Positions 11,561 to 64,000 of a stretch of 64,000 nt of DNA are shown here, piece by piece. Source of the DNA: Hexactinellida sp. DTS-2022. Taxonomy: Eukaryota > Porifera > Hexactinellida. Position numbers and translations under genes: made by a program. Position 1 is the stretch's first letter. Every line of letters starts with the position of its first letter. The notes below the pieces were generated by a model, which was given only the letters and a program-made list of their open reading frames with translations, made no database searches and was not told where the DNA came from. Location of the stretch: the NCBI GenBank assembly GCA_028753945.1, contig JAPNXP010000014.1:1240001-1304000 (forward strand), read 5' to 3'.

Positions 11561-12523
11561 CAGTTCCTCCTCTACGACTCGGGACCGGAGACGCAGAGGA
11601 TCCTCATCTTCGGGACACAGCGCAACCTGGAGATGCTGCGACTGTCGGGCTACTGGATGGCTGACGGCACCTTCAAGACGGCTCCCTCCCTTTTCGCCCA
11701 GGTGTATGTGGTGCATGCACTCCGTGGAGGGCCTCAAGTCATGCGGGATGGTCACCTGCTGCCGAGTCTGTTCGTGCTGCTGCCCAACAAGACGGAGGCT
11801 ACCTACAGGAGGATGTGGGAGCAGATTCGCCTACTCTGTCCCCTTGCCCAGCCGAGGCGGATGCTCTTGGACTTCGAGAAGGCTGCGATTAACAGCTTTG
11901 AGGCGGTGTGGCCGGACACACTGGTCAAGTGCTGCTTCTTCCACCTCACGCAGAACGTATGGCGCAAGGTGCAGGCTGCTGGCCTGCAGGCTGCCTACAG
12001 CCAGGACGAGGAGCTGGCTCTGCGCATCAGACACCTCCCAGCTCTCGCGTTCGCCCCGCTCACGGATGTGCCCGGCCTGTTTTCAGCTGTAGCGACGCTG
12101 CTCCCGATGCCAGAGGCCGCCGAGCTGGTCCTGTACTTCGAGCAGACCTACATCGGGCGTATTCTCCCAGGCGGCACATACCAGGCGCCGCTGTTCCCTA
12201 TCGGCCTCTGGAACTACCACATGGATACGCCCTTCGGACTGCCTCGGACCACCAACGCCGTGGAGGCCTGGCACCGCAGCTTTAACGCCACTGTTGGCTG
12301 CCACCACCCTACCATATGGAAGTTCTTAGCTGCCCTGAAGCGGGAGCAGGGCCTTGTGGAGGTGCGGCAGGCTAAGTTCACCGCGGGAGCGGCGCCCACC
12401 AAGCGGAAGAGCGCACAGGCTAACGAGGAGAAGCTGGTTAATCTAGTCACCACTTATTATAGTCGTAATCGTATAGAGTTCTTGAGAGGAGTAGCACATC
12501 ATTTCAGTTTGGGAGCGGATTAA
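11549..12523 (+). pseudogene. N-truncated MULE transposase, inverted copy
   Basis: From about 11561 this frame repeats the intact MULE transposase of 12533-13972 in opposite orientation. It starts at the FLLYDSGPE segment, so it lacks the FLYWCH finger and roughly the first 165 residues, although the DDE triad region is present (MADGTFK, MLLDFEKAA, TTNAVEAWHRSF). About 870 nt differ from the partner at only a handful of sites. The last 85 nt before the stop differ at roughly one base in five. No natural start was found upstream, where the sequence joins the older MULE relic. It is probably non-functional but could form a hairpin transcript with its partner. Confidence 0.8.
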
Positions 12524-13503
12524 TACCTATCACTAGGCTGTTAATCCCTCTCTTCTGAATTGGTGTGCCACGACTCTTAGGAACTCTATTCCAGTGCGAT
12601 TATAATAGCTGGTTGCTAGGTTAGTCAGCTTATCCTCGTTAGCCTGTGCGCTCTTCCGCTTGGTGGGCGCCGCTCCCGCGGTGAACTTAGCCTGCCGCAC
12701 CTCCACAAGGCCCTGCTCCCGCTTCAGGGCAGCTATGAACTTCCATATGGTAGGGTGGTGGCAGCCAACAGTGGCGTTAAAGCTGCGGTGCCAGGCCTCC
12801 ACGGCGTTGGTAGTCCGAGGCAGTCCGAAGGGCGTCTCCATGTGGTAGTTCCAGAGGCCGATAGGGAACAGCGGCGCCTGGTATGTGCCGCCTGGGAGAG
12901 TACGCCCGATGTAGGTCTGCTCGAAGTACAGGACCAGCTCGGCGGCCTCTGGCATCGGGAGCAGCGTCGCTACAGCTGAAAACAGGCCGGGCACATCCGT
13001 GAGCGGGGCGAACGCGAGAGCTGGGAGGTGTCTGATGCGCAGAGCCAGCTCCTCGTCCTGGCTGTAGGCAGCCTGCAGGCCAGCAGCCTGCACCTTGCGC
13101 CATACGTTCTGCGTGAGGTGGAAGAAGCAGCACTTGACCAGTGTGTCCGGCCACACCGCCTCAAAGCTGTTAATCGCAGCCTTCTCGAAGTCCAAGAGCA
13201 TCCGCCTCGGCTGGGCAAGGGGACAGAGTAGGCGAATCTGCTCCCACATCCTCCTGTAGGTAGCCTCCGTCTTGTTGGGCAGCAGCACGAACAGACTCGG
13301 CAGCAGGTGACCATCCCGCATGACTTGAGGCCCTCCACGGAGTGCATGCACCACATACACCTGGGCGAAAAGGGAGGGAGCCGTCTTGAAGGTGCCGTCA
13401 GCCATCCAGTAGCCCGACAGTCGCAGCATCTCCAGGTTGCGCTGTGTCCCGAAGATGAGGATCCTCTGCGTCTCCGGTCCCGAGTCGTAGAGGAGGAACT
13501 GCT
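11561..13503. repeat. Large inverted repeat of MULE transposase genes
   Basis: Arms of about 945 bp (11561-12505 and 12555-13503) face each other tail to tail around a short spacer. Identity is near complete for the outer 870 bp of each arm and drops abruptly to about 80 percent in the innermost 85 bp. Confidence 0.85.
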
Positions 13504-16674: not shown

Positions 16675-17622
16675 TTAAACTACTGGGTATTGATCCCTTA
16701 TTTCTTTAATTAAATTGGAGAAAGTAGCTTCTATATATTTTTTTCTCCAACATATTTCGGCCAGATAGGTGTCCAATAGTTCCGGATTTGTAGTCATGGA
16801 GTTCCTCATCCTTTTTTTCGCTTGACCCCAAGTACTTTCCACAGTTTGGGTATGTACACCAGTGCTGGGATTTACAAAATTTACGCTATGGTTAACGGTT
16901 AAGTGTTGGAATGTGCTAGCAGGAATTAAATTATACGAGGCCCATTCATCAGAGTAGATAGTAGTCCCAGGGAGAATATACTGCTGTATGATCGGGACTA
17001 AAGTTGCTGCTGTCCGATTAAGTACAGGGATCATAAAAACCTCCTTTGTATCTCTATCAATTCCTCCAAATACCCATTGACCTGAAAGTAAACGACCTCT
17101 GGAATATTTTCTGTGACCGAATTTTGATTCATCTATTTCAACGATATGTCCAGGTCCGCCAATTGGTTTGGGATTAGTTAAAAATACTTCAACACACAAG
17201 TCACGAATAAAGTTCTTCCAATCAGTGATTGTATGTTCTCCCCAACCAAGATTCTTGTGTAAAAATGCCGTTGTTTGCAGATTATCAGCCCAGAAATAGA
17301 GAAATTCTACCAATTCGGGTAATGGTACATTGGAACCTTCGAAAAATGAACCAATCCTCAGTGATGCGAACTTTTTACAGTTTTTTTCCGGACATCTCCA
17401 CCCCTTTCCTTCTGATATACCCGAAAATGCACCAGGACGCATCATGCTACCGCATTTACATAGCATCCCTCTAGCTAAAAGTCCATTAGTCTGCAACCAC
17501 GTGATACAGGTATTTTCATCACTAGTAACAGCACGAAAAAGTTGCTTTAATGTCATTTCATTATCAGTAGGGAAGATTGTAGGAACCATCAAAGGTTGGA
17601 ATGAAGGAGCAATTGCCATCAA
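16675..17622 (-). CDS. Merlin (IS1595/ISXO2-like DDE) transposase
   Basis: A 315-residue uninterrupted frame encodes a transposase of the Merlin superfamily, the eukaryotic relative of bacterial IS1016/IS1595. An N-terminal zinc-ribbon-like part has CKCG and WRCPEKNCKKFASL. It is followed by FFEGSNVPLPELVEFLYFWA, a segment typical of this family. The nuclease carries VEIDESKFG (Asp), TIYSDEWASY (Asp) and THTVESTWGQ-like TQTVESTWGQ (Glu). The start ATG at 17622 has a second methionine right after it. It lies between near-identical 365-bp inverted repeats that I take as its ends. The AT-rich codon use matches the surroundings, which argues against bacterial contamination. It is probably still able to make protein. 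Confidence 0.9.
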   Translation of the reverse strand: MMAIAPSFQPLMVPTIFPTDNEMTLKQLFRAVTSDENTCITWLQTNGLLARGMLCKCGSMMRPGAFSGISEGKGWRCPEKNCKKFASLRIGSFFEGSNVPLPELVEFLYFWADNLQTTAFLHKNLGWGEHTITDWKNFIRDLCVEVFLTNPKPIGGPGHIVEIDESKFGHRKYSRGRLLSGQWVFGGIDRDTKEVFMIPVLNRTAATLVPIIQQYILPGTTIYSDEWASYNLIPASTFQHLTVNHSVNFVNPSTGVHTQTVESTWGQAKKRMRNSMTTNPELLDTYLAEICWRKKYIEATFSNLIKEIRDQYPVV

Positions 17623-36139: not shown

Positions 36140-36613
36140 TCAACGATTACGGTACCAAAAAGTGAATTTTTCACACTGGACTGCCCGTGTAGTATTCTTT
36201 CTACCTGAGGTATCAGATACAAATTCAGATAGTTTGCAGTCGCATATTAATTCAATTCTAAACACATGGGGATGCGGGAGTTTCCCGCCACGCAGTCCGC
36301 GTGTTCTGTCAGGTAAAGGAGATGCGTGCTCATTTTGGATGCACTCTATACAATGCGCTCTCATTTCGTCTAGATTCCATGTTTGCGAAACTGGATCAAT
36401 TTCTGCAGCATAATACGTTGCTTTATCCGATGCAAACAATCCGCAATCAAACATTCCATTTTGCCTTTGAATTTTTGGGAACAATCTATATATTACAAGC
36501 ACCATTGTTGTTTGTGTGTTTGTGTGTTTAATTATTGTGATCAGAGCCGATACAATTAATTGTCCAGAATTAATAGGAAAGACCATATGGTCTAGAGATC
36601 TTAAAATTTGCAT
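36140..36613 (-). pseudogene. Ulp1-like protease/PHD relic
   Basis: The minus strand reads FPKIQRQNGMFDCGLFA, which is the Q-x5-C catalytic region of a Ulp1/SENP-type (C48) cysteine protease. MRAHCIECIQNEHASPLPD follows, and then CDCKLSEF with a later VQCEKFTFWY, which resemble the first half of a PHD finger. The same order is found in the intact protein encoded at 55629-57898, so this looks like a relic of a second element of that kind. The catalytic histidine part and the end of the PHD are missing, and upstream sequence has been replaced by a GT/hairpin repeat. Confidence 0.6.
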
Positions 36614-54307: not shown

Positions 54308-54456
54308 TCCTACTGCCCTTGGTTAGTTATTACTGTGCCGACTATACTATAACGCTAAACATATAATACATAGTATATGTTGTACATACAATGCTACATT
54401 CTTTCTTTTTGCGTTCTGATACATCTACCTATCTATCTATTTATCTATCTATCTCT

Positions 54457-54474
54457 ATATTAAAAGAGGAATTG

Positions 54475-54519
<45 letters not shown>

Positions 54520-55028
54520 TCCAGAATTGATTGGAAAGACTACGAGTCCCAGAAAGCTGAAAATTTGTATACAGGGGTAATTTTGTACTGCGACAACGAT
54601 CTATTGGTTTTTGAAGAGAAATATTCACATTTAAAGGTGACAAAATATGTTAGCCAATTAAATTCGAGGGTTTGTTAGTATGGATTACTAACTTATTCAA
54701 TTAGTATAAATAGATTGTGCATAATAGAAATATATTCTGAGGCTCCAATTTGATTGATTGAAAAAAATTCATTTAACCAATCAATCATTAGTCTATTCTA
54801 TTGCCTGTTTTTCTTTTAGTATTATTTTGATTCGAGCTTTCTTATCGTGCAACTGAAATTTATTGAGCTACTAAAACTCATTATTAATGTGATTGCTTTT
54901 GGGGAGGGAAAGGCCGCGAAGCGGCCGTTAATTGTATCGCGTAGCGCCTAACACGAACAAACAAAAGTCGCGAAGCGACTTTTGTGAGAGAGTGATCCGT
55001 CGCGAAGCGACCGAGACCGAAGGGCTCG
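54457..55028 (+). mobile_element. GT/hairpin (Helentron-like) element, complete copy
   Basis: It starts TATTAAAAGAGGAATTGTTG with a (GT) run of about 20 units, then GTCCAGAATTGATTGGAAAG and ACAGGGGTAATTTTGTACTG. The 3' part has three hairpins (GCGAAGCGGCC, GTCGCGAAGCGAC twice) and ends GAAGGGCTCGTA. The next copy begins at the very next base. It has no inverted termini and no coding sequence. Confidence 0.7.
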
Positions 55029-55296
55029 TATATTAAAAGCGAAATTGTTGTTTGTGTGTTTGTGTGTTTGTTTGTGTGTGTGTGTGTGTGTTTGTCCAGA
55101 ATTAATTGGAAAGACTACGAGTCCCAGAAAGCTGAAAATTTGTATACAGGGGTAATTTTGTACTGCGACAACGATCTATTGGTTTTTGAAGAGAAATATT
55201 CACATTTGAAGGTGACAAAATATGTTGGCCAATTAAATTCGAGGGTTTATTAGTATGGATTAGCAGATTTCATCAATTAGTCATATATTAAAAAGT

Positions 55297-55405
55297 ACAC
55301 TGGACATGTCCATTAGGTACACTGGACATGTCCGTTAGGTACACTGGACATGTCCGTTAGGTACACTGGACATGTCCGTTAGGTACACTGGACATGTCCG
55401 TTATG
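55297..55405 (+). repeat. Left terminal array of the KDZ element (5 x 22 bp)
   Basis: Five tandem GTACACTGGACATGTCC units are joined by ATTAG or GTTAG. The inner 10-mer GGACATGTCC is a perfect palindrome. These are likely transposase-binding sites. Confidence 0.9.
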
Positions 55406-55628
55406 TACATAGTGATAAGATGTTTGTGGTTTACAAACTGTGAGAAGATTTTGTTGTTTATCATATTTAATTAGGACTATAAATAGATCAAACTGAGCCT
55501 ATATTGTGTCACTATACTTCATATATTAATAATTTCTTGCTATATTGACTAATAATCAAATTAAAAATTTGAACCTTCTTATTCATCGAAAACAAATTTC
55601 TAAATTCAGTCAATCAGAATATTTTCGG

Positions 55629-57898
55629 ATGCCTCGTATAACCAAGGGTAACGCAAGGGAACATTTATCAGAAGCAATCCAAAGATTCCAAAAGGTTACA
55701 GGAGAATCCATCGGCGTAGTCTACTCCTGGAAGGGTGCATTATCAGTAATTGGTAACAATTATTTACGGGAACATATTTCTGAAACCAAAGAAATAGTTT
55801 GGAGATCTTTGACTTTCGAGCGATCAACAACACTAGACGACGCATCGTACATTTTAGATAAAGAAGATGAAATGATGCATCTTCTAAAACAAGATCTAAA
55901 ATCACTCAGTGTCTCGGTATTGAGGAAGATTTTGTCGTGGGCTACTCAAAAGGCACCCAGTGAGTTTTCCTGTTTTTCCAACATGCACGATTCAACTGTG
56001 TTGTTCAACAATATTACATGAAACTAAATTAGTTGATGATCATATAAAGTTGCAACAAAGTATATCGTGCAATTTATATAATTACGAGCCCTTCGGTCTC
56101 GCTTTTTTTAATAGCCAAAAAATATTAATTCGTAGTCTGCATACTTGTTTACCTTATAGGCTTATCCAACAAATGGAAGTTAGTCTCTAGTTCATTTCGA
56201 ATTCTCCATAATTTGTTTACCTATTTTTGATAAACAACATCAGTAAATATTCATTTTTGAAATTTGTAAATGCGAAATTCGAAATCAGCATACTTGTTTA
56301 CCTATAATAACATTTCGAATTTTTTTTCTCATATACGTATAAATGCGGTTTCTATTCCCCATCACTTTAATAGAATCTAAGCAAACAAACACACAAACAA
56401 ACAACAATCGAGTTTTAATAAAATTACTTTTCCTAATGGAATATTTCAAATCAATTGGAATGGTAAAATCGTAATTCTAAAATACTCGACTAGAATTAAC
56501 TTAAATGACTTAATTATTGTAGGAAAACCGCGTAATTTTTGGGGGAACAGCGAATTTCAGCCTATATTTTGGCCTAAAGATTTACCTTTTCTGAAAAAGT
56601 CAAAGAATTTGGACAGATCTACATTACTCATTGTAGTCCAATCAATACGCGAATATCTATACCCAGAACTTTGTGAGAGAGCTTTAACTGAGAGTTTTAG
56701 AGACAGGTCACCTATTCATTTAAAAACAAATAAAGATCCATTGGAAACTGAAATTAACGATGAAATTTTTACAAATCCAACTGCTATTCCTTCAGTGATT
56801 TCCAGCCAGCAACAATCTCAAAATAATTCTCCCGGACCTAATTCTCTTGATCTTAATTTCAATTCAATTCCTTCTACTCCCATTGTCTTATCTGGACTGC
56901 AACTCGATCACCCACGCTCCCCAGCTTTACTTATCCCTTTTTCGGATACTTCACCAGCTTCAATTATAAAACTATCTGGTGCAATTCCGTTAAGCCCTTT
57001 AAATGTAAAATTTATAACAATTTTAGATGAAAAAGTGAGGAAAGAATGTCTTAGAGAACTCTCAAATCCCAATACTTTCCTTAGTGATGTAACTATCAAT
57101 GCTTTTGGGGTGAGTTTAATTAGGATAATGTTATTTTAAATAGCAATAATGGAATTTCTATTTCGTATTTTAGGTTCTAATGAAAAACAACTACCCACAC
57201 ATTCTCGGACTTCAGGATACTATATTATCAGAGGTAATTATCGCTTTTTGAATGTACTTATACTACTAATATAATTAGAAATGATACTTCATTTAATTTT
57301 ATAGAATCGCCAGTTCATCAAAGCACCACTAACAAGTTTTCAAATCCATCATGATGGTGGATTACACTGGGTGTGCTCAAGGATTGATGATAAAGGAGAT
57401 GTATCTGTTTACGATTCGATGTATCACCAGCACACTAGCGAAAAACTAGACATCCAGCTTGCACTTCTCTACCGTAGAGAATCTGGAGATTTAAAAGTAA
57501 CTGTGGAACCCCTACAACAACAAAGAGGTGTATCGGATTGCGGAGTGTTTGCGATCACTGTTTGCATCGCATTGGCGAATGGTTTAGAACCTGACCAAAT
57601 GAGATGGCGCCAAGCAAATATGAGAAAACAGCTCCAGAGTTTTATCAATTCGGAAAAGATATCACCCTTACCTACGCTTTCAAATCGACTGGCTTCAAAT
57701 GTGAGTAGTACAAAACACGTTTATACCATCAAGTTATGGTGTCTGTGTCGGTTACCCGAATTCGCTTACAAAAACATGGTCATGTGTCCAAGCTGTCATA
57801 TATGGTTTCACAAACCATGTATTGGACTCAAGGATACTAGTCAAAAGGTACTCTCGTTTATATGCAGAAAATGCCAAACTACAAAGATGAAAGAGTAA
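55629..57898 (+). CDS. Ulp1-type cysteine protease with C-terminal PHD finger (transposon-encoded)
   Basis: I infer four exons: 55629-55959, 56523-57109, 57174-57233 and 57305-57898, all with GT-AG introns and frame kept, giving 523 residues. Exon 1 and early exon 2 (GNAREHLSEAIQRF, then RKPRNFWGNSEF) are unrecognised. Exon 4 starts a C48/Ulp1 protease with the full catalytic set: H347 in HHDGGLHWVC, D363 in VYDSMY, and Q399 and C405 in QRGVSDCGVFA. A perfect C4HC3 PHD finger follows at residues 472-516 (CLC, CPSC, WFHKPC, CRKC). Such proteases cleave SUMO or similar tags, and PHD fingers read histone tails. It lies convergent to the transposase. A GT/hairpin repeat (56083-56430) sits in intron 1. 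Start codon choice is uncertain because an upstream in-frame ATG lies near 55545. Confidence 0.82.
55960..56522 (+). other. Intron 1 of the Ulp1/PHD gene, enlarged by an insertion
   Basis: The donor GTGAGT at 55960 and acceptor TTATTGTAG ending at 56522 join codon A|GA in frame. The other introns of this gene are 64 and 71 nt. The extra length here is mostly the GT/hairpin repeat at 56083-56430. Confidence 0.75.
56083..56430 (-). mobile_element. GT/hairpin element inside the KDZ transposon
   Basis: Inverted relative to the outer copies: ACGAGCCCTTCGGTCTCGC at the left is the 3' terminus, and CAACAATCGAGTTTTAATA at the right is the 5' start. The middle carries one unit of the 143-bp repeat type (GCATACTTGTTTACCTAT). 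It arrived after the KDZ element. Confidence 0.7.
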
Positions 57899-57949
57899 AC
57901 ATGTGATCAAGTTATTTATTTAATGATTTAGTGAACTAAATTCAATTTA

Positions 57950-60900
57950 TTATAATTTTTCTAATTCTTGTTTATTCAAACAATACAAAAAATATCGGAC
58001 ATTGTAAAATACGTTTTCAATCCGCATGAAAGATACTTGAGTAGATATTCTTCTGAGCGTAGAGAATAATTGCTCGCAAACTTGAGAATTAATTCTCTTG
58101 AAATCTTCACTTTTGACAGATTTCAAAGAATAAGATGGGTTGCAGCAATGATTCTTCCAGTGAAAGCGGTCAACCAGGAATGTTGTATCTTTGAAAAGTT
58201 GAGGATCTCTAAAATAACAATTGATTCATACAGTAAAACTAGGTGATAACGTACCACCAGGGGAAAGCAAAAAGTACGTACTAACTAGTTCTACTAATAT
58301 TAATAGAATTGGACATCCAACTGAAAAAAATTGCATAACTTATGCCTAAATGTTTTAGAGATAGTTTTCTCATCTGTGAGGGAACTTATTATTTTGATCT
58401 AGGTTCTAACCTGATAATGCATGTGGTATGTAAATTACACGCATTGTCGTATATAATTATACGTGGGGGGGTTTGAAATAACGTCAGCAATAGATTGAAT
58501 ACTGTTGTTGTGGACTCTTTAGAACGAAGAATTTCAAATCCGTAGCATACTTTATGCTTACAAACTAGAACTAACAGTCCCGGTGATAGCCTTTGGTGTT
58601 TTGGATATACTTTTGTACATCTTTTAATACTTTTCTCTTCATTCTCGTCTTCATAAATAGGTAATCTATTGGATAAATCATTTAACAGGAGTTCATACTT
58701 GTATACATTAACATATAGTAAGATACCTGTAACGTCTTGCTATTGCTGGAAAGTATTGAATAAAATTATTAGATGATGCTGCCTCAACTAATTTCCTTCT
58801 ATCTCTATGAGAATTGAGTGCCTCAATTTTGAACAGAATTGACTTTAACAAACCAGCTAGAAGAGGATTAAGAGTCAACGCCGTGTTCAGTTGTTCATTT
58901 ACTTCAGAAAACGAATTAATGAGAAACTTGAAAGTGTAAATTTTGCCGCAAATCTCGAATAGTATTCCTGGATTAATTGGTGTTCCATCAGAAAGCTGGA
59001 CAATAGCTTTCATTTCTTCATCATCGAGAATTGAAATAGGAAATAGGCCAGTAATCGGCTCGGATCGGGACAAGAGTTCGATGACAACTTTGGCGTTGGG
59101 ATAACTATAGTTAACTGCATAAATCTCTTCTCTAACACTATTAGCAAAGATTAAATAATCGCTAAATTCTTTGAACTCTAGAGAACTTATCATGGCATGA
59201 AATGCGCCTTCTAACAATCCATTTTCACAATATTCTCTGAGATTTTTTCTGTTTTTTAGATCAGAAATGAATAATCTTTTTGACATAGGGACTAATGGGT
59301 ATCTCTGATTCTCATCATATTCTTGTTGTGAATCAGGAAGTTCTTTGATTGTCCCCATTGTGATTCCATCTAAAACCAATATTTCCGGAGCATCTCTACA
59401 CCTGGGGCAAATAAAGCTGTTTGTGTAGTTAATATCTAACATTCGTAAATATCCATTCCATCCGTGTTGCAAAATGTGGTAACTAAAGCTGAGTTCTCTG
59501 CCCATCCTGTGGAATTTATTATTCTTTGCTCTAAAATTATAGGAAGATGATATTTAACCTTTAAATTACGTACATAGACTTTATGAAAATACATACCTCA
59601 TGTATCCATGAAGTGTATTCCTTGACATAGTCATAAATTCGCTGTATTCGTATAGGACTCCGTAATGGATAAAGTACCGATTGTTAACATTGAGTAATAA
59701 ATATTTATCACCCTCAAAGACAACTTTGCAATTACACTTCCCTTCGCAGGTTGTAGTATACACTAAATATATGACAAATTAAGTCTGCATATCGGAAAGG
59801 TAAACAACATAAATTATACATACCTGTATGTTCTTTTAAGTCAAGTATATCATTTTCTGTGTAAACAATGATGCCCTTCTTTACTGCAACTAAATTTTTC
59901 TCACTATATTTATGGCCTTGCTCGCAAAAAGAAATATCCGATTTGAGATTTATGGGTAGCATGATTCCTTGTGTAAGCTGTTCATTATAAATATTTGCTA
60001 AGTTCTTACTTAGTTTAAATGGAATTTCTCGAGTAGATATTGTTGAATAGTCAAGAGCCTTCGGGGCTATAGGTATTTGATCTATGTATTCAGAAAGAAT
60101 CTTCTGTAAAGTTGACTTTTGTTTGCACATTCCGCTACAGTTATCGCAATACCACTTTCTTTCTTTCATATAAAAGCAGTGATATCCATTCCTAATGAGA
60201 AAGATTGTATTAGCATCTATTGTAAAATAGGTACTGTCTGCGTGTGATTTGGATTCTGCTAAAGCCAAACTTTGGAACTCTAAGCACATGTTATATGCTT
60301 GATAATGTAAGTATGAATTTAGGTGACAAGATAAACATATCTCCAAACTTGTTTCAATCAAAACCCTCTTCTTCGTTAACAATACTTCACCTAACATAGG
60401 AAAATAAAGTAATTAAAAAAATCACAGAAATTCAGTGAACTTATTTACTTATATTACCATTAGTGACATCAAAATCTGACATAAATATGACTGAGGAATC
60501 CTGCAAACGCCAGGCCTTCTGTTTGTCGGATAGAATATGTACATATTGGTCTAGTATTGGAATATTTAATATCAGCTCTCCTTGTGAACATATCTCAGTA
60601 CTTTCTTCTTCTTTATGTTCTCCTAAAAATAAAAAAAAGTTAAGTGTATTTCTTACTTGAATTATTTAAATAATTATATATACGTACATGTTTTGCCTGG
60701 AAAGAAATAACATTCGAAATGACATTGAACAGTTATAATAAATTCCTCATTTTATTTTTCAAATTAGAATTAGAATTAGTCCTCAATTATGAATTAATTA
60801 AACCCGAAAATCGAGCTTGTTAACTCGACCCAGTTGATTGGGCCAAGTAGACTTGTATTAATCATCTTAGATAATTATTCCTTGAAAAATGGCAAGCCAA

Positions 60901-61233
60901 CCAATTTCATGGACTCATCAGGGGGTAACTCTCTTGCTGAGTCCCTGAAATTGGATGCAGAGCAACCAGTTTCACACTGGGTCGTTGTTCACATAACATT
61001 TTGATCTACAATAAAATCAAAACTCGTATATGAAACTTACTAGATGCAATTGCAAATTGCTGTTCAGATATTGTAGTCATATTTGTGGATTTAGAAATAT
61101 CAATTCTTTCGATATAAAGGGTTGCTGGAGTAACGTCAAATTTCTCCTCAACTAGTCTTCGTTTTCTCGGGTGGTTAATATCAAACGTTGAGGTAGAGAG
61201 TTTTTCAGCCATTTTGATTTGTATCGATGTCAA
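57950..61233 (-). CDS. KDZ-family (Zisupton/HMGXB3-like) transposase
   Basis: I infer seven exons: 61233-61041, 60622-60458, 60390-59824, 59762-59597, 59530-58727, 58665-58411 and 58208-57950. All have GT-AG introns and continuous frame, giving 802 residues, or 795 from the ATG at 61212. Cysteine-cluster parts come first (EICLSCHLNSYLHY, KWYCDNCSGMC, FCEQGHKYSE), then the C-N-C segment with LLNVNNRYFIHYGVL. FICPRCRDAPEILVLDG matches the C-P-x-C ... DG block of this family. The KDZ nuclease region follows: LSPGLLVLVCKHKVCYGFE, IIIYDNACNLH, FLVDRFHWKNHCC and INSQVCEQLFSTLRRIS. These blocks are characteristic of Zisupton elements and the vertebrate domesticated gene HMGXB3. No stop interrupts the spliced frame. 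The protein should bind and cut the terminal arrays in the nucleus. AT-rich codon use matches the rest of the element. Confidence 0.85.
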
Positions 61234-61349
61234 ATAATACTTATGAATAGAAATACAGAAATTTTCATTTATTTATATACTTTACGCGATTCAAATTAAA
61301 ACATGTGACTATTGATGCTTTGCCTTGAGATTGGGGGGTCGACTGTCTA

Positions 61350-61513
61350 CCTAACGGACATGTCCAGTGTACCTATTGGACATGTCCAGTGTACCTAACG
61401 GACATGTCCAGTGTACCTAATGGACATGTCCAGTGTACCTAATGGACATGTCCAGTGTACCTAATGGACATGTCCAGTGTACCTAATGGACATGTCCAGT
61501 GTACTTTTTAATA
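61350..61513 (-). repeat. Right terminal array of the KDZ element (7 x 22 bp)
   Basis: Seven tandem units, inverted relative to the left array, read GGACATGTCCAGTGTACCTA, with CCTAACG, CCTATT and CCTAATG joints. It ends ACTTTTTAATA. It has two more units than the left end. Confidence 0.9.
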
Positions 61514-61858
61514 CCTCCAATTAGTATAAATAGATTGTGCATAATAGAAATATTTTCTGAGGCTCCAATTTGATTGATTGAAAATAAATTAATTTAACCA
61601 ATCAATCATTTGTCTATTCTATTGCCTGTTTTTCTTTAAGTATTATTTTGATTCGAGCTTTCTTATCGTGTAACTGAAATTTATTGAGCTTTTAAAACTC
61701 ATTATTAATGTGATTGCTTTTGGGGAGGGAAAGGCCGCGAAGCGGCCGTTAATTGTATTGCGTAGTGCCTAACACGAACAAACAAAAGTCGCGAAGCGAC
61801 TTTTGTGAGAGAGTAATCCGTCGCGAAGCGACCGAGACCGAAGGGCTCGTATATTAAA

Positions 61859-62733: not shown

Positions 62734-62760
62734 AGTGTTTCTCAAACTTTTTCGGACAGA
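62734..62760. mobile_element. hAT-type MITE terminus, solo
   Basis: CAGTGTTTCTCAAACTTTTT matches the end of the MITE at 1878-2054. It runs directly into the RAD51 N-terminal piece, and its pyrimidine run followed by CGGACAG resembles a 3' splice site. No mate terminus was found. Confidence 0.45.
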
Positions 62761-63043
62761 GCCCATTAGCTACCTCGAGTCGCGTGGCGTTAGTGCGGGC
62801 GACATAAAGTTTCTAGAAGAAGTCGGATTCCACACAGTAGAATCAATCGCTTTTGTATCCAAGAAACAGCTGATTGTAATCAAAGGCATCAGTGAAGCGA
62901 AAGCCGACAAGATTCTCTCCGAGGCGAGAAAGCTAATCCCGATGGGATTCACAACAGCGACTGAGGTTCATCAGAAGCGGTCTGACATTGTGCATATCTC
63001 AACTGGCAGCTTTAACCAAACAAGCAATAAATCATCACAATAG
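62755..63043 (+). pseudogene. RAD51: RAD51 N-terminal domain fragment
   Basis: The plus strand encodes [19 protein letters not shown], continuing through [29 protein letters not shown] and [17 protein letters not shown] to HISTGS. This is the N-terminal helix-hairpin-helix region of RAD51 (human residues about 22-100), which binds DNA. After STGS the frame leaves the family and stops at 63043. No GT donor follows at that point. AATAAA at 63078 and an A run at 63100 follow. The ATPase core lies in opposite orientation just to the right. This is either an exon displaced by an inversion or a partial duplicate. Complete first and later exons are not visible on this strand. Confidence 0.7.
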
Positions 63044-63049
63044 TTTGTG

Positions 63050-63150
63050 TTGTATAAGCAGTGTAACAGTTATAAAAAATATAATAAATTAGTGAGAAGT
63101 AAAAAAAAAAAATCTGTTGTGTAAAAAAAATTTAAAAAAAAAATCTGTGA
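63050..63150. other. A/T-tract junction between the two RAD51 pieces
   Basis: AATAAATTAGTGAGAAGT is followed by A12, ATCTGTTGTGT, A8, TTT and A10, then the end of the minus-strand RAD51 frame. The duplicated ATCTGT words next to A tracts suggest a rearrangement or retroposition joint. Confidence 0.45.
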
Positions 63151-64000
63151 CATCGCCTATCCCTCCCGGGAGGATGGCAAACACAGTTTCGCCTTCCGGG
63201 AGATAGGGCGAAGCGTTAATTTGGCATAGTCGAGATTCTTCCCTGCCTTTTCTGAGATACAGCCTTGTGGTGGAGGCGTGTGCTATTATGTTACCGCCGA
63301 TCGGTATATTCGGATCCACAGAGGTAGATCTAGCAGCGCCATCAACCTGCGCCACCACCTGGTTTGTTATAACAACCGAAATTCCGAATTCGTCGGCCAT
63401 TCTTTGCAACACGCGTAAAAACTTGCCCAGGAGCGTTTGTCGGGCGTATAGCTCTCCCCTCCCCGAGTAATCTGTCCGGAAGAGACCAGTCGCGCTGTCC
63501 ACCACCAGAAGCGGGTATCGGCTCTTTTTTGACATGATATTGCAAGCCTGCACTAACAGCTGGAACTGGTGGTCCGTGTTGTAGGCCCTGGCGTAATCTA
63601 TGTTCTCTAGTACTGTTGTGCCGGTGTCAGAGGAGATCCTGTTCCCCCGTGAAAATTTTTCCCCCGAACAATATTTCCTAGGAAATATTGTTCGGGGGAA
63701 CAATTTTCACGGGGGAACAGGATCTCCTCTGACAGGTGTCATAGTAAATCCTGTTCCCCCATCTTTTTGTTCCCCCGAACAGTATTTCCTAGCAAATCCT
63801 GTTCGGGGGAACAAAAAGATGGGGGAACAGGATTTACTATGACACCGGTCAACTTGAAGCGGGCTGCAATTGCCAGCACTCGTTCCGAACGGAAAGAAGA
63901 GTCTGTGCCGATGTATAGACATTTCCCCGCGCCCCCGCCCATGTTAGTCGGGAGCTGACACGTGACCGCCAGCGTGTGGCATATCTGGGTCTTACCAGTA
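63130..64000 (-). CDS. RAD51: RAD51 recombinase core, interrupted by a palindrome insertion; runs off the window
   Basis: Reading leftwards from 64000, [17 protein letters not shown] (end of Walker A), [18 protein letters not shown] and RFKLTG are followed by a 220-bp palindromic insert (63625-63844). [18 protein letters not shown] then resumes, with [19 protein letters not shown] (Walker B and following), [15 protein letters not shown] (loop L1), [18 protein letters not shown] (loop L2) and [13 protein letters not shown]. This is RAD51, the strand-exchange ATPase of homologous recombination, rather than DMC1. Without the insert, [10 protein letters not shown] aligns exactly with human RAD51. 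The insert and 4-bp duplication add 224 nt, which shifts frame, and no GT-AG pair restores the joint exactly. After the natural C-terminus a poly-T tract extends the frame to 63089. The coding part is GC-richer than its surroundings. It may be a damaged copy. Confidence 0.8.
63625..63845. repeat. Back-to-back 110-bp palindromes inserted in RAD51
   Basis: 63625-63734 and 63736-63845 are each about 110 bp and almost perfectly self-complementary. They are related to each other through shared ATCCTGTTCCCCC, TTCCCCCGAACA and TATTTCCTAG words. Outer words TGTCAGAG and CTATGACA mirror each other, and CCGG lies on both sides (63621-63624 and 63845-63848), as a short target duplication would. Confidence 0.8.

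Follow-up and report, generated by a model that had tools for sequence, protein, structure and literature searches.

A glass sponge KDZ-class transposon from a clan whose partner genes carry an NRF1-type DNA-binding region

Earlier work on KDZ and Zisupton transposons describes 8-bp target-site duplications for Zisupton and TET/JBP genes as cargo of fungal KDZ elements (PMC12730594), as well as multi-exon genes for Zisupton in the nematode Pristionchus (PMC9297572). Here, we analysed a stretch of 64,000 nucleotides from Hexactinellida sp. DTS-2022 (contig JAPNXP010000014.1, positions 1,240,001 to 1,304,000; hereafter the window), which contains a whole KDZ-class DNA transposon of 6,236 bp at 55282-61517. 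It resembles the described KDZ and Zisupton elements in having a KDZ domain (PF18758) that scores above the Pfam cut-off, 8-bp duplications, inverted ends and multi-exon genes, but differs from them in carrying a partner gene, in which an NRF1-type region is joined to a Ulp1-type protease and a PHD finger, and arrays of palindromes in 22-bp units at its ends. This partner gene, whose identity a preliminary description of the same DNA did not recognise, is the new and most unusual part of the element. We propose, with a probability of roughly 0.7, that the locus is a two-gene cut-and-paste transposon of the KDZ class, in which a modular partner protein binds the end palindromes as a dimer, aids assembly and regulates both genes. 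Among the best-ranked matches in the open-licence PMC literature no paper linked KDZ or Zisupton elements with an NRF1 domain or with NRF1 sites, and the matches there for Zisupton combined with Ulp1 or SUMO protease included no Zisupton paper.

The bounds of the element were set by the sequence CAATTAGT, which is present at both 55274-55281 and 61518-61525. With the flanks joined, a neighbouring uninterrupted repeat could be aligned to them over 608 columns (94.7%); CAATTAGT is present in it only once, so that the 8-bp duplication and empty neighbour copy of the preliminary description were both borne out, as were its mirrored ends, which proved to be inverted arms of 124 nucleotides with 97% complementarity. 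The element begins with CATATATTAAAAAG and ends with CTTTTTAATACCTC, the outermost five bases being unlike between the two ends. Both arms are built of a 22-bp unit in tandem (5.2 copies on the left, 7.1 on the right), and the minus-strand transposase gene is convergent with the plus-strand partner gene. Coordinates of all features of the element are given in Table 1.

In our gene model the transposase has seven exons on the minus strand and encodes 795 amino acids, not the 802 given earlier; its six introns are all GT-AG and keep the frame open. Pfam KDZ matched residues 654-771 with 34.1 bits and an expectation value (E) of 2.9e-8 (curated cut-off 26.6 bits), in agreement with the original class assignment, and CxC4 matched with E 6.2e-5 and 23.3 bits, below its cut-off of 26.9. 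The motifs CPxC..DG, YDNACNLH and NSQ..EQ, which we take to be the conserved blocks of KDZ transposases, were all found in the window protein, as had been described together with the seven exons. Across the loci covering each block, copies of the window's own family included, DG was kept in 11/11, YDNACNLH was exact in 8/11 and NSQ[VI]CEQ in 10/14. An intron of 29 nucleotides between exons 5 and 6 was rejected because the frame requires one of 61 nucleotides at 58726-58666. The ratio of non-synonymous to synonymous substitution rates (dN/dS) of the transposase was 0.09-0.16 between families (L048, L050, L051 and L052; dS was saturated in the other families) and 0.37-0.97, on few changes, within the window family; the low ratios between families point to constraint, and the codon counts behind all of these ratios are approximate owing to overlapping matches.

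A near-identical copy of the element lies on contig C7, with 8 differences in 6,166 aligned bases, one amino-acid change in the partner and two in the transposase. Both genes are open in the window and in this copy, as expected from the two intact spliced genes reported before. The copy is flanked by the duplication AAATTTTC instead of CAATTAGT, which is what the genome check suggested by the preliminary description (other copies with the same ends and different 8-bp flanks) had looked for. Older or broken copies were found on contigs C1 and C2, and L042 is a deletion derivative of ~2.7 kb. The sequence GTACACTGGACATGTCC occurred 43 times in the 112.4-Mb genome (reversed control, 0), 42 times within five elements of the window family and once ~0.6 kb from a transposase fragment of 97.7% identity. 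Perfect 8-bp duplications flanked seven of the ten elements with both ends readable (five of the window family and five related), while those of L042 (7/8), L039 (6/8) and L054 (1/8 in register, with a 7-base match shifted by one) were imperfect. To judge from copies and duplications only, the window family has probably been mobile in the recent past. The arrays comprise 5 and 7 units in the window and 4 and 6 in the C7 copy, and array length seems to change quickly; in L051, the terminal array at 1583-2040 has ~20 units and the other end ~3. Three elements of ~5.7-5.9 kb on contig C1 (8395079-8400820, 14225150-14230947 and 17396183-17402078) carry GCGCATGCGC arrays at both ends and enclose transposase, Ulp1/PHD and NRF1-type matches with nearly identical scores, which suggests that they are recent copies.

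The partner gene was modelled as four plus-strand exons encoding 523 amino acids, with three introns that are again GT-AG and frame-keeping; the ten introns of the preliminary description therefore become nine (6 + 3), all of the kind it described. The protein starts with the NRF1-type region, followed by the Ulp1-type protease and the PHD finger. Peptidase_C48 (PF02902) scored 22.6 bits (cut-off 20.7) with the H, D, Q and C residues present, and PHD (PF00628) scored 26.2 bits (cut-off 24). The catalytic cysteine of the Ulp1 region was found in 10/12 aligned loci; L039 has Y at this position and L052 was misaligned. The position of intron 1 was common to 6/8 related loci attempted (no model was obtained for L048 and L053, and the L052 model contained a stop). 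A dispersed repeat lies inside this intron at ~56080-56420 of the window and matches L046, L051-L054, L056 and L057 at 72-86%. Elsewhere in the window, a minus-strand frame at 36140-36613 resembles the Ulp1/PHD partner by eye (DCGLFA...CDCKLSEF), with no Pfam match at E 0.01, and is possibly a relic of another partner-bearing element.

The NRF1-type assignment was examined with eight aligned partner N-termini (window, P0002, P0003, L051, L054, L055, L056 and L057). At E up to 1, the Pfam profile of the NRF1 DNA-binding domain (Nrf1_DNA-bind, PF10491) matched all eight, with a best E of 1.4e-11, and the proteins P0004 and P0005 scored above its cut-off. A profile built from the eight sequences and compared with the PDB matched human NRF1 over ~100 residues (8k4l, E 1.4e-6; 8k3d, E 2e-6), with the next match at 1.1, and two homologues from the glass sponge Oopsacas minuta are named after the NRF1 domain in UniRef. 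Base contacts in human NRF1 are made by R206 at the central CA/TG, by N242 at the outermost G and by R244 at the two pairs that follow (PMC10810270). The counterpart of R206 (R99 in the window) is invariant in 8/8 sequences, and so are those of W224, P231, W234 and P235; P0003 and L055 have N and K at the N242/R244 positions, where the alignment is uncertain by one residue. By these matches the clan can be placed in the NRF1 DNA-binding family, and the window protein by itself weakly: its assignment depends on its relatives because its own PF10491 match is weak (E 0.12, 12.5 bits, below the cut-off of 23.5).

Given this weak match, we searched the whole genome with PF10491 at E up to 10. Matches were found at 76 places, and 18 besides a domain on C1 passed the cut-off alone or with in-frame neighbours. 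That domain (C1:12370499, E 3e-50, profile positions 1-212) is near-complete, lies outside the elements and probably marks the host NRF1 gene. After merging, 72 non-host NRF1-type loci were obtained, of which 47 had a Ulp1/PHD match at a distance of 5 kb or less, compared to an expectation of ~0.5 in all (~0.0068 per locus); 46 of these 47 were upstream of that match and on the same strand. When transposase matches were also counted, 55/72 had a neighbour within 5 kb, and 43 of 45 Ulp1-transposase pairs were convergent, as in the window.

The terminal arrays were examined in related loci whose selection was based on resemblance to the genes in protein or DNA sequence, not on motifs. Arrays with a period of 22-23 were present in nine (L048, L049 and L051-L057), and seven of the nine (L048, L049, L051, L053, L055, L056 and L057) contained the exact NRF1 site GCGCATGCGC; L052 had only the one-base variant GCGCATGCAC. 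The palindrome of the window family, GGACATGTCC, keeps the CATG core with the outer bases changed. The array lay 82-219 bp upstream of the partner ATG in all nine loci measured (window, L048 and L051-L057). In the genome as a whole, GCGCATGCGC-N12-GCGCATGCGC occurred at 105 places (reversed control, 0), and of the 25 clusters formed by 50 of these, 14 had at least one of the three genes within 8 kb. There is no CpG in GGACATGTCC and there are four CpG-type steps over both strands in GCGCATGCGC, and it is possible that the two sites differ in sensitivity to DNA methylation. We also considered p53, since GGACATGTCC fits RRRCWWGYYY, which we take to be the p53 half-site consensus. No PF00870 (p53) match was found in the genome, a result that is not decisive as control genomes gave none either; this negative, together with the NRF1 site carried instead by related ends, led us to drop the p53 reading.

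In the mechanism that we propose, the partner would bind as a dimer to the palindromes, which recur at 22-bp intervals in both element ends. Array-bound partner would then help the transposase to assemble on the two ends, or to pair them, and would in addition regulate both genes, a role we suggest because each start codon has an array a short distance upstream. The protease might strip silencing proteins of SUMO or a SUMO-like modifier, and tethering of the complex to modified histones might fall to the PHD finger.

Several observations weigh against this proposal. Apart from the weak PF10491 score of the window protein, the eight-sequence profile aligned with NRF1 only from about residue 146, such that only the end of the dimerisation domain (54-172) was covered, and the N242/R244 positions hold other residues in the window (K/S on the simplest reading, with the same uncertainty of one residue). 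The window and C7 copies were absent from the 76 genome matches, even at E up to 10, and since this threshold was so permissive some of the 72 loci may be chance matches; for 16 of them, neither Ulp1 nor transposase was matched within a distance of 8 kb. Eleven of the 25 clusters of paired GCGCATGCGC were near none of the three genes. L054 has an NRF1-type domain, yet its arrays are built of the palindrome TTCGACWGTCGAA without CATG, and no such array was seen in the stretch of L050 examined. L053 has KKS at the N242/R244 positions, as in the window, yet carries GCGCATGCGC arrays, and hence there is no simple code between residues and sites; a one-to-one residue code for the change from GCG to GGA was rejected as unproven, gap placement being ambiguous. 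Lastly, named protein relatives came only from O. minuta among the candidates scored, which does accord with the guess, made before, of an early-branching animal.

Other explanations were considered alongside our proposal. The transposase itself may bind the terminal arrays, with the NRF1-type partner acting elsewhere, for instance at host promoters or in anti-silencing. Binding to their own inverted repeats is common among DNA transposases, the transposase here has a CxC4-like cysteine cluster, and the arrays of L054 have changed though its partner keeps the counterpart of R206. However, an exact NRF1 site (PMC10810270) in seven of nine array loci is not predicted by transposase binding, which we thus regard as unlikely. 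It is more doubtful still that the arrays are bound chiefly by host NRF1 as a borrowed promoter activator, with the encoded domain serving as a decoy or modulator. The near-full-length NRF1 domain at C1:12370499 and the arrays upstream of the partner start codons fit such a borrowing, but it leaves unexplained why the element should encode an NRF1-type domain at all, and also the GGACATGTCC of the window family, which is without the GCGC repeats required by human NRF1 (PMC10810270). A superficial likeness to NRF1, in which an unrelated domain happens to hold a short motif rich in W and P, is very improbable: the weak score of the window protein alone and the genome matches, most of which span only about profile positions 135-190, would suit it, but PF10491 matched 8/8 members, the profile recovered NRF1 in the PDB with no close competitor and the element ends carry the NRF1 site.

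Compared to NRF1 itself (Erect wing family, PDB 8k4l/8k3d), the partner has a homologous DNA-binding region, and GCGCATGCGC is found in most of the related ends examined; it differs in being fused to Ulp1 and PHD modules inside a transposon, in not keeping N242/R244 in the window and in lacking an alignment to the upstream part of the dimerisation domain. Compared to the Ulp1/SENP SUMO proteases (Peptidase C48), the partner shares a PF02902 match above cut-off and the H, D, Q and C residues, and SENP1 and Ulp1-like chains were the next matches of the partner profile in the PDB (E 0.024-0.83); it differs in that the catalytic match of the window protein is shortened, with a PHD finger after it. 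For the transposase, the closest among the proteins scored was LOD99_7756 of O. minuta (65% identity over 77%), and six partner relatives, all from O. minuta, were found, P0002 matching at 61% over 99%. These relatives of the transposon proteins make a glass sponge host likely, although horizontal transfer is conceivable. A further partner search, in which 8,000 candidates sharing most words were scored (the transposase search being limited likewise), gave 10 proteins, of which 7 belong to O. minuta and the other 3 are ENA entries. One of the ENA proteins, P0014 (720 amino acids), has Ulp1-like and PHD regions in the same order as the window partner, both just below the Pfam cut-offs, but differs from it in that NRF1 was not matched at E 0.1. 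A CxC...CxH pattern at the N-terminus of P0014 appears by eye to be SWIM-like, so that an exchange of the N-terminal DNA-binding module is possible.

Table 1. Features of the KDZ transposon and its target site (positions in the window).
Feature	Position	Strand	Remarks
Neighbouring target repeat	54456..55059	+	uninterrupted; natural empty site
Left target-site duplication	55274..55281	.	CAATTAGT; once in uninterrupted neighbour repeat
Entire KDZ transposon	55282..61517	.	6,236 bp
Left terminal array	55295..55409	+	22-bp unit GTACACTGGACATGTCCGTTAG; 5 GGACATGTCC palindromes; 219 bp upstream of partner ATG
Partner exon 1	55629..55959	+	N-terminal part of NRF1-type region; R99 (aligns with human NRF1 R206)
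Partner exon 2	56523..57109	+	remaining NRF1-type DNA-binding region (FWG...FWPKDLPF), then linker
Partner exon 3	57174..57233	+
Partner exon 4	57305..57898	+	Ulp1-type protease (residues 338-432, ~57338-57622); PHD finger (residues 472-516, ~57740-57874)
Transposase exon 7	57950..58208	-	FLVDRFHWKNH and NSQVCEQ
Transposase exon 6	58411..58665	-	YDNACNLH; KDZ domain over exons 6-7, residues 654-771
Transposase exon 5	58727..59530	-	CPRC...LVLDG
Transposase exon 4	59597..59762	-	part of CxC4-like cysteine cluster (residues 260-372)
Transposase exon 3	59824..60390	-
Transposase exon 2	60458..60622	-
Transposase exon 1	61041..61212	-	start codon at 61212
Right terminal array	61348..61504	-	7 GGACATGTCC palindromes; ~135 bp upstream of transposase ATG
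Right target-site duplication	61518..61525	.	CAATTAGT

Other features were noted in the window outside the element. An inverted repeat of 947 nucleotides (97%, 47-nucleotide spacer) at 11561-13501 holds two frames for MULE transposases in head-on orientation, of which the minus-strand frame has a FLYWCH zinc finger as well, and an open frame for an ISXO2/IS1595-like (Merlin-type) transposase lies at 16675-17622 (E 3.9e-20). At 62760-64000, coding pieces that are RAD51-like by eye lie on opposite strands, with the N-terminal piece on the plus strand (~62760-63040) and the rest on the minus strand, the latter broken by two palindromes with perfect arms (63625-63734 and 63730-63851); this stretch looks like a rearranged copy.

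Taken at the strength given above, these results describe a clan of transposons that encode a form of a major promoter factor of animals and bear arrays of the factor's own site, and they raise the question of whether host NRF1 switches such elements on. Since it is nearly identical to the C7 copy, the window element should be well suited to the study of KDZ transposition, and the natural series of proteins and sites (GCGCATGCGC, GCGCATGCAC, GGACATGTCC and TTCGACWGTCGAA) could serve to study how specificity changes. Because sponges branch early among animals, the origin of NRF1 is also brought into question. We think it conceivable, if improbable, that capture ran in the direction opposite to the one that seems obvious, and that the DNA-binding domain of animal NRF1 descends from the DNA-binding subunit of a KDZ-type transposon, with the terminal palindrome GCGCATGCGC as the original NRF1 site; were this so, the glass sponge elements would be living relatives of the source, and families of the window type would later have shifted the outer bases of the site.

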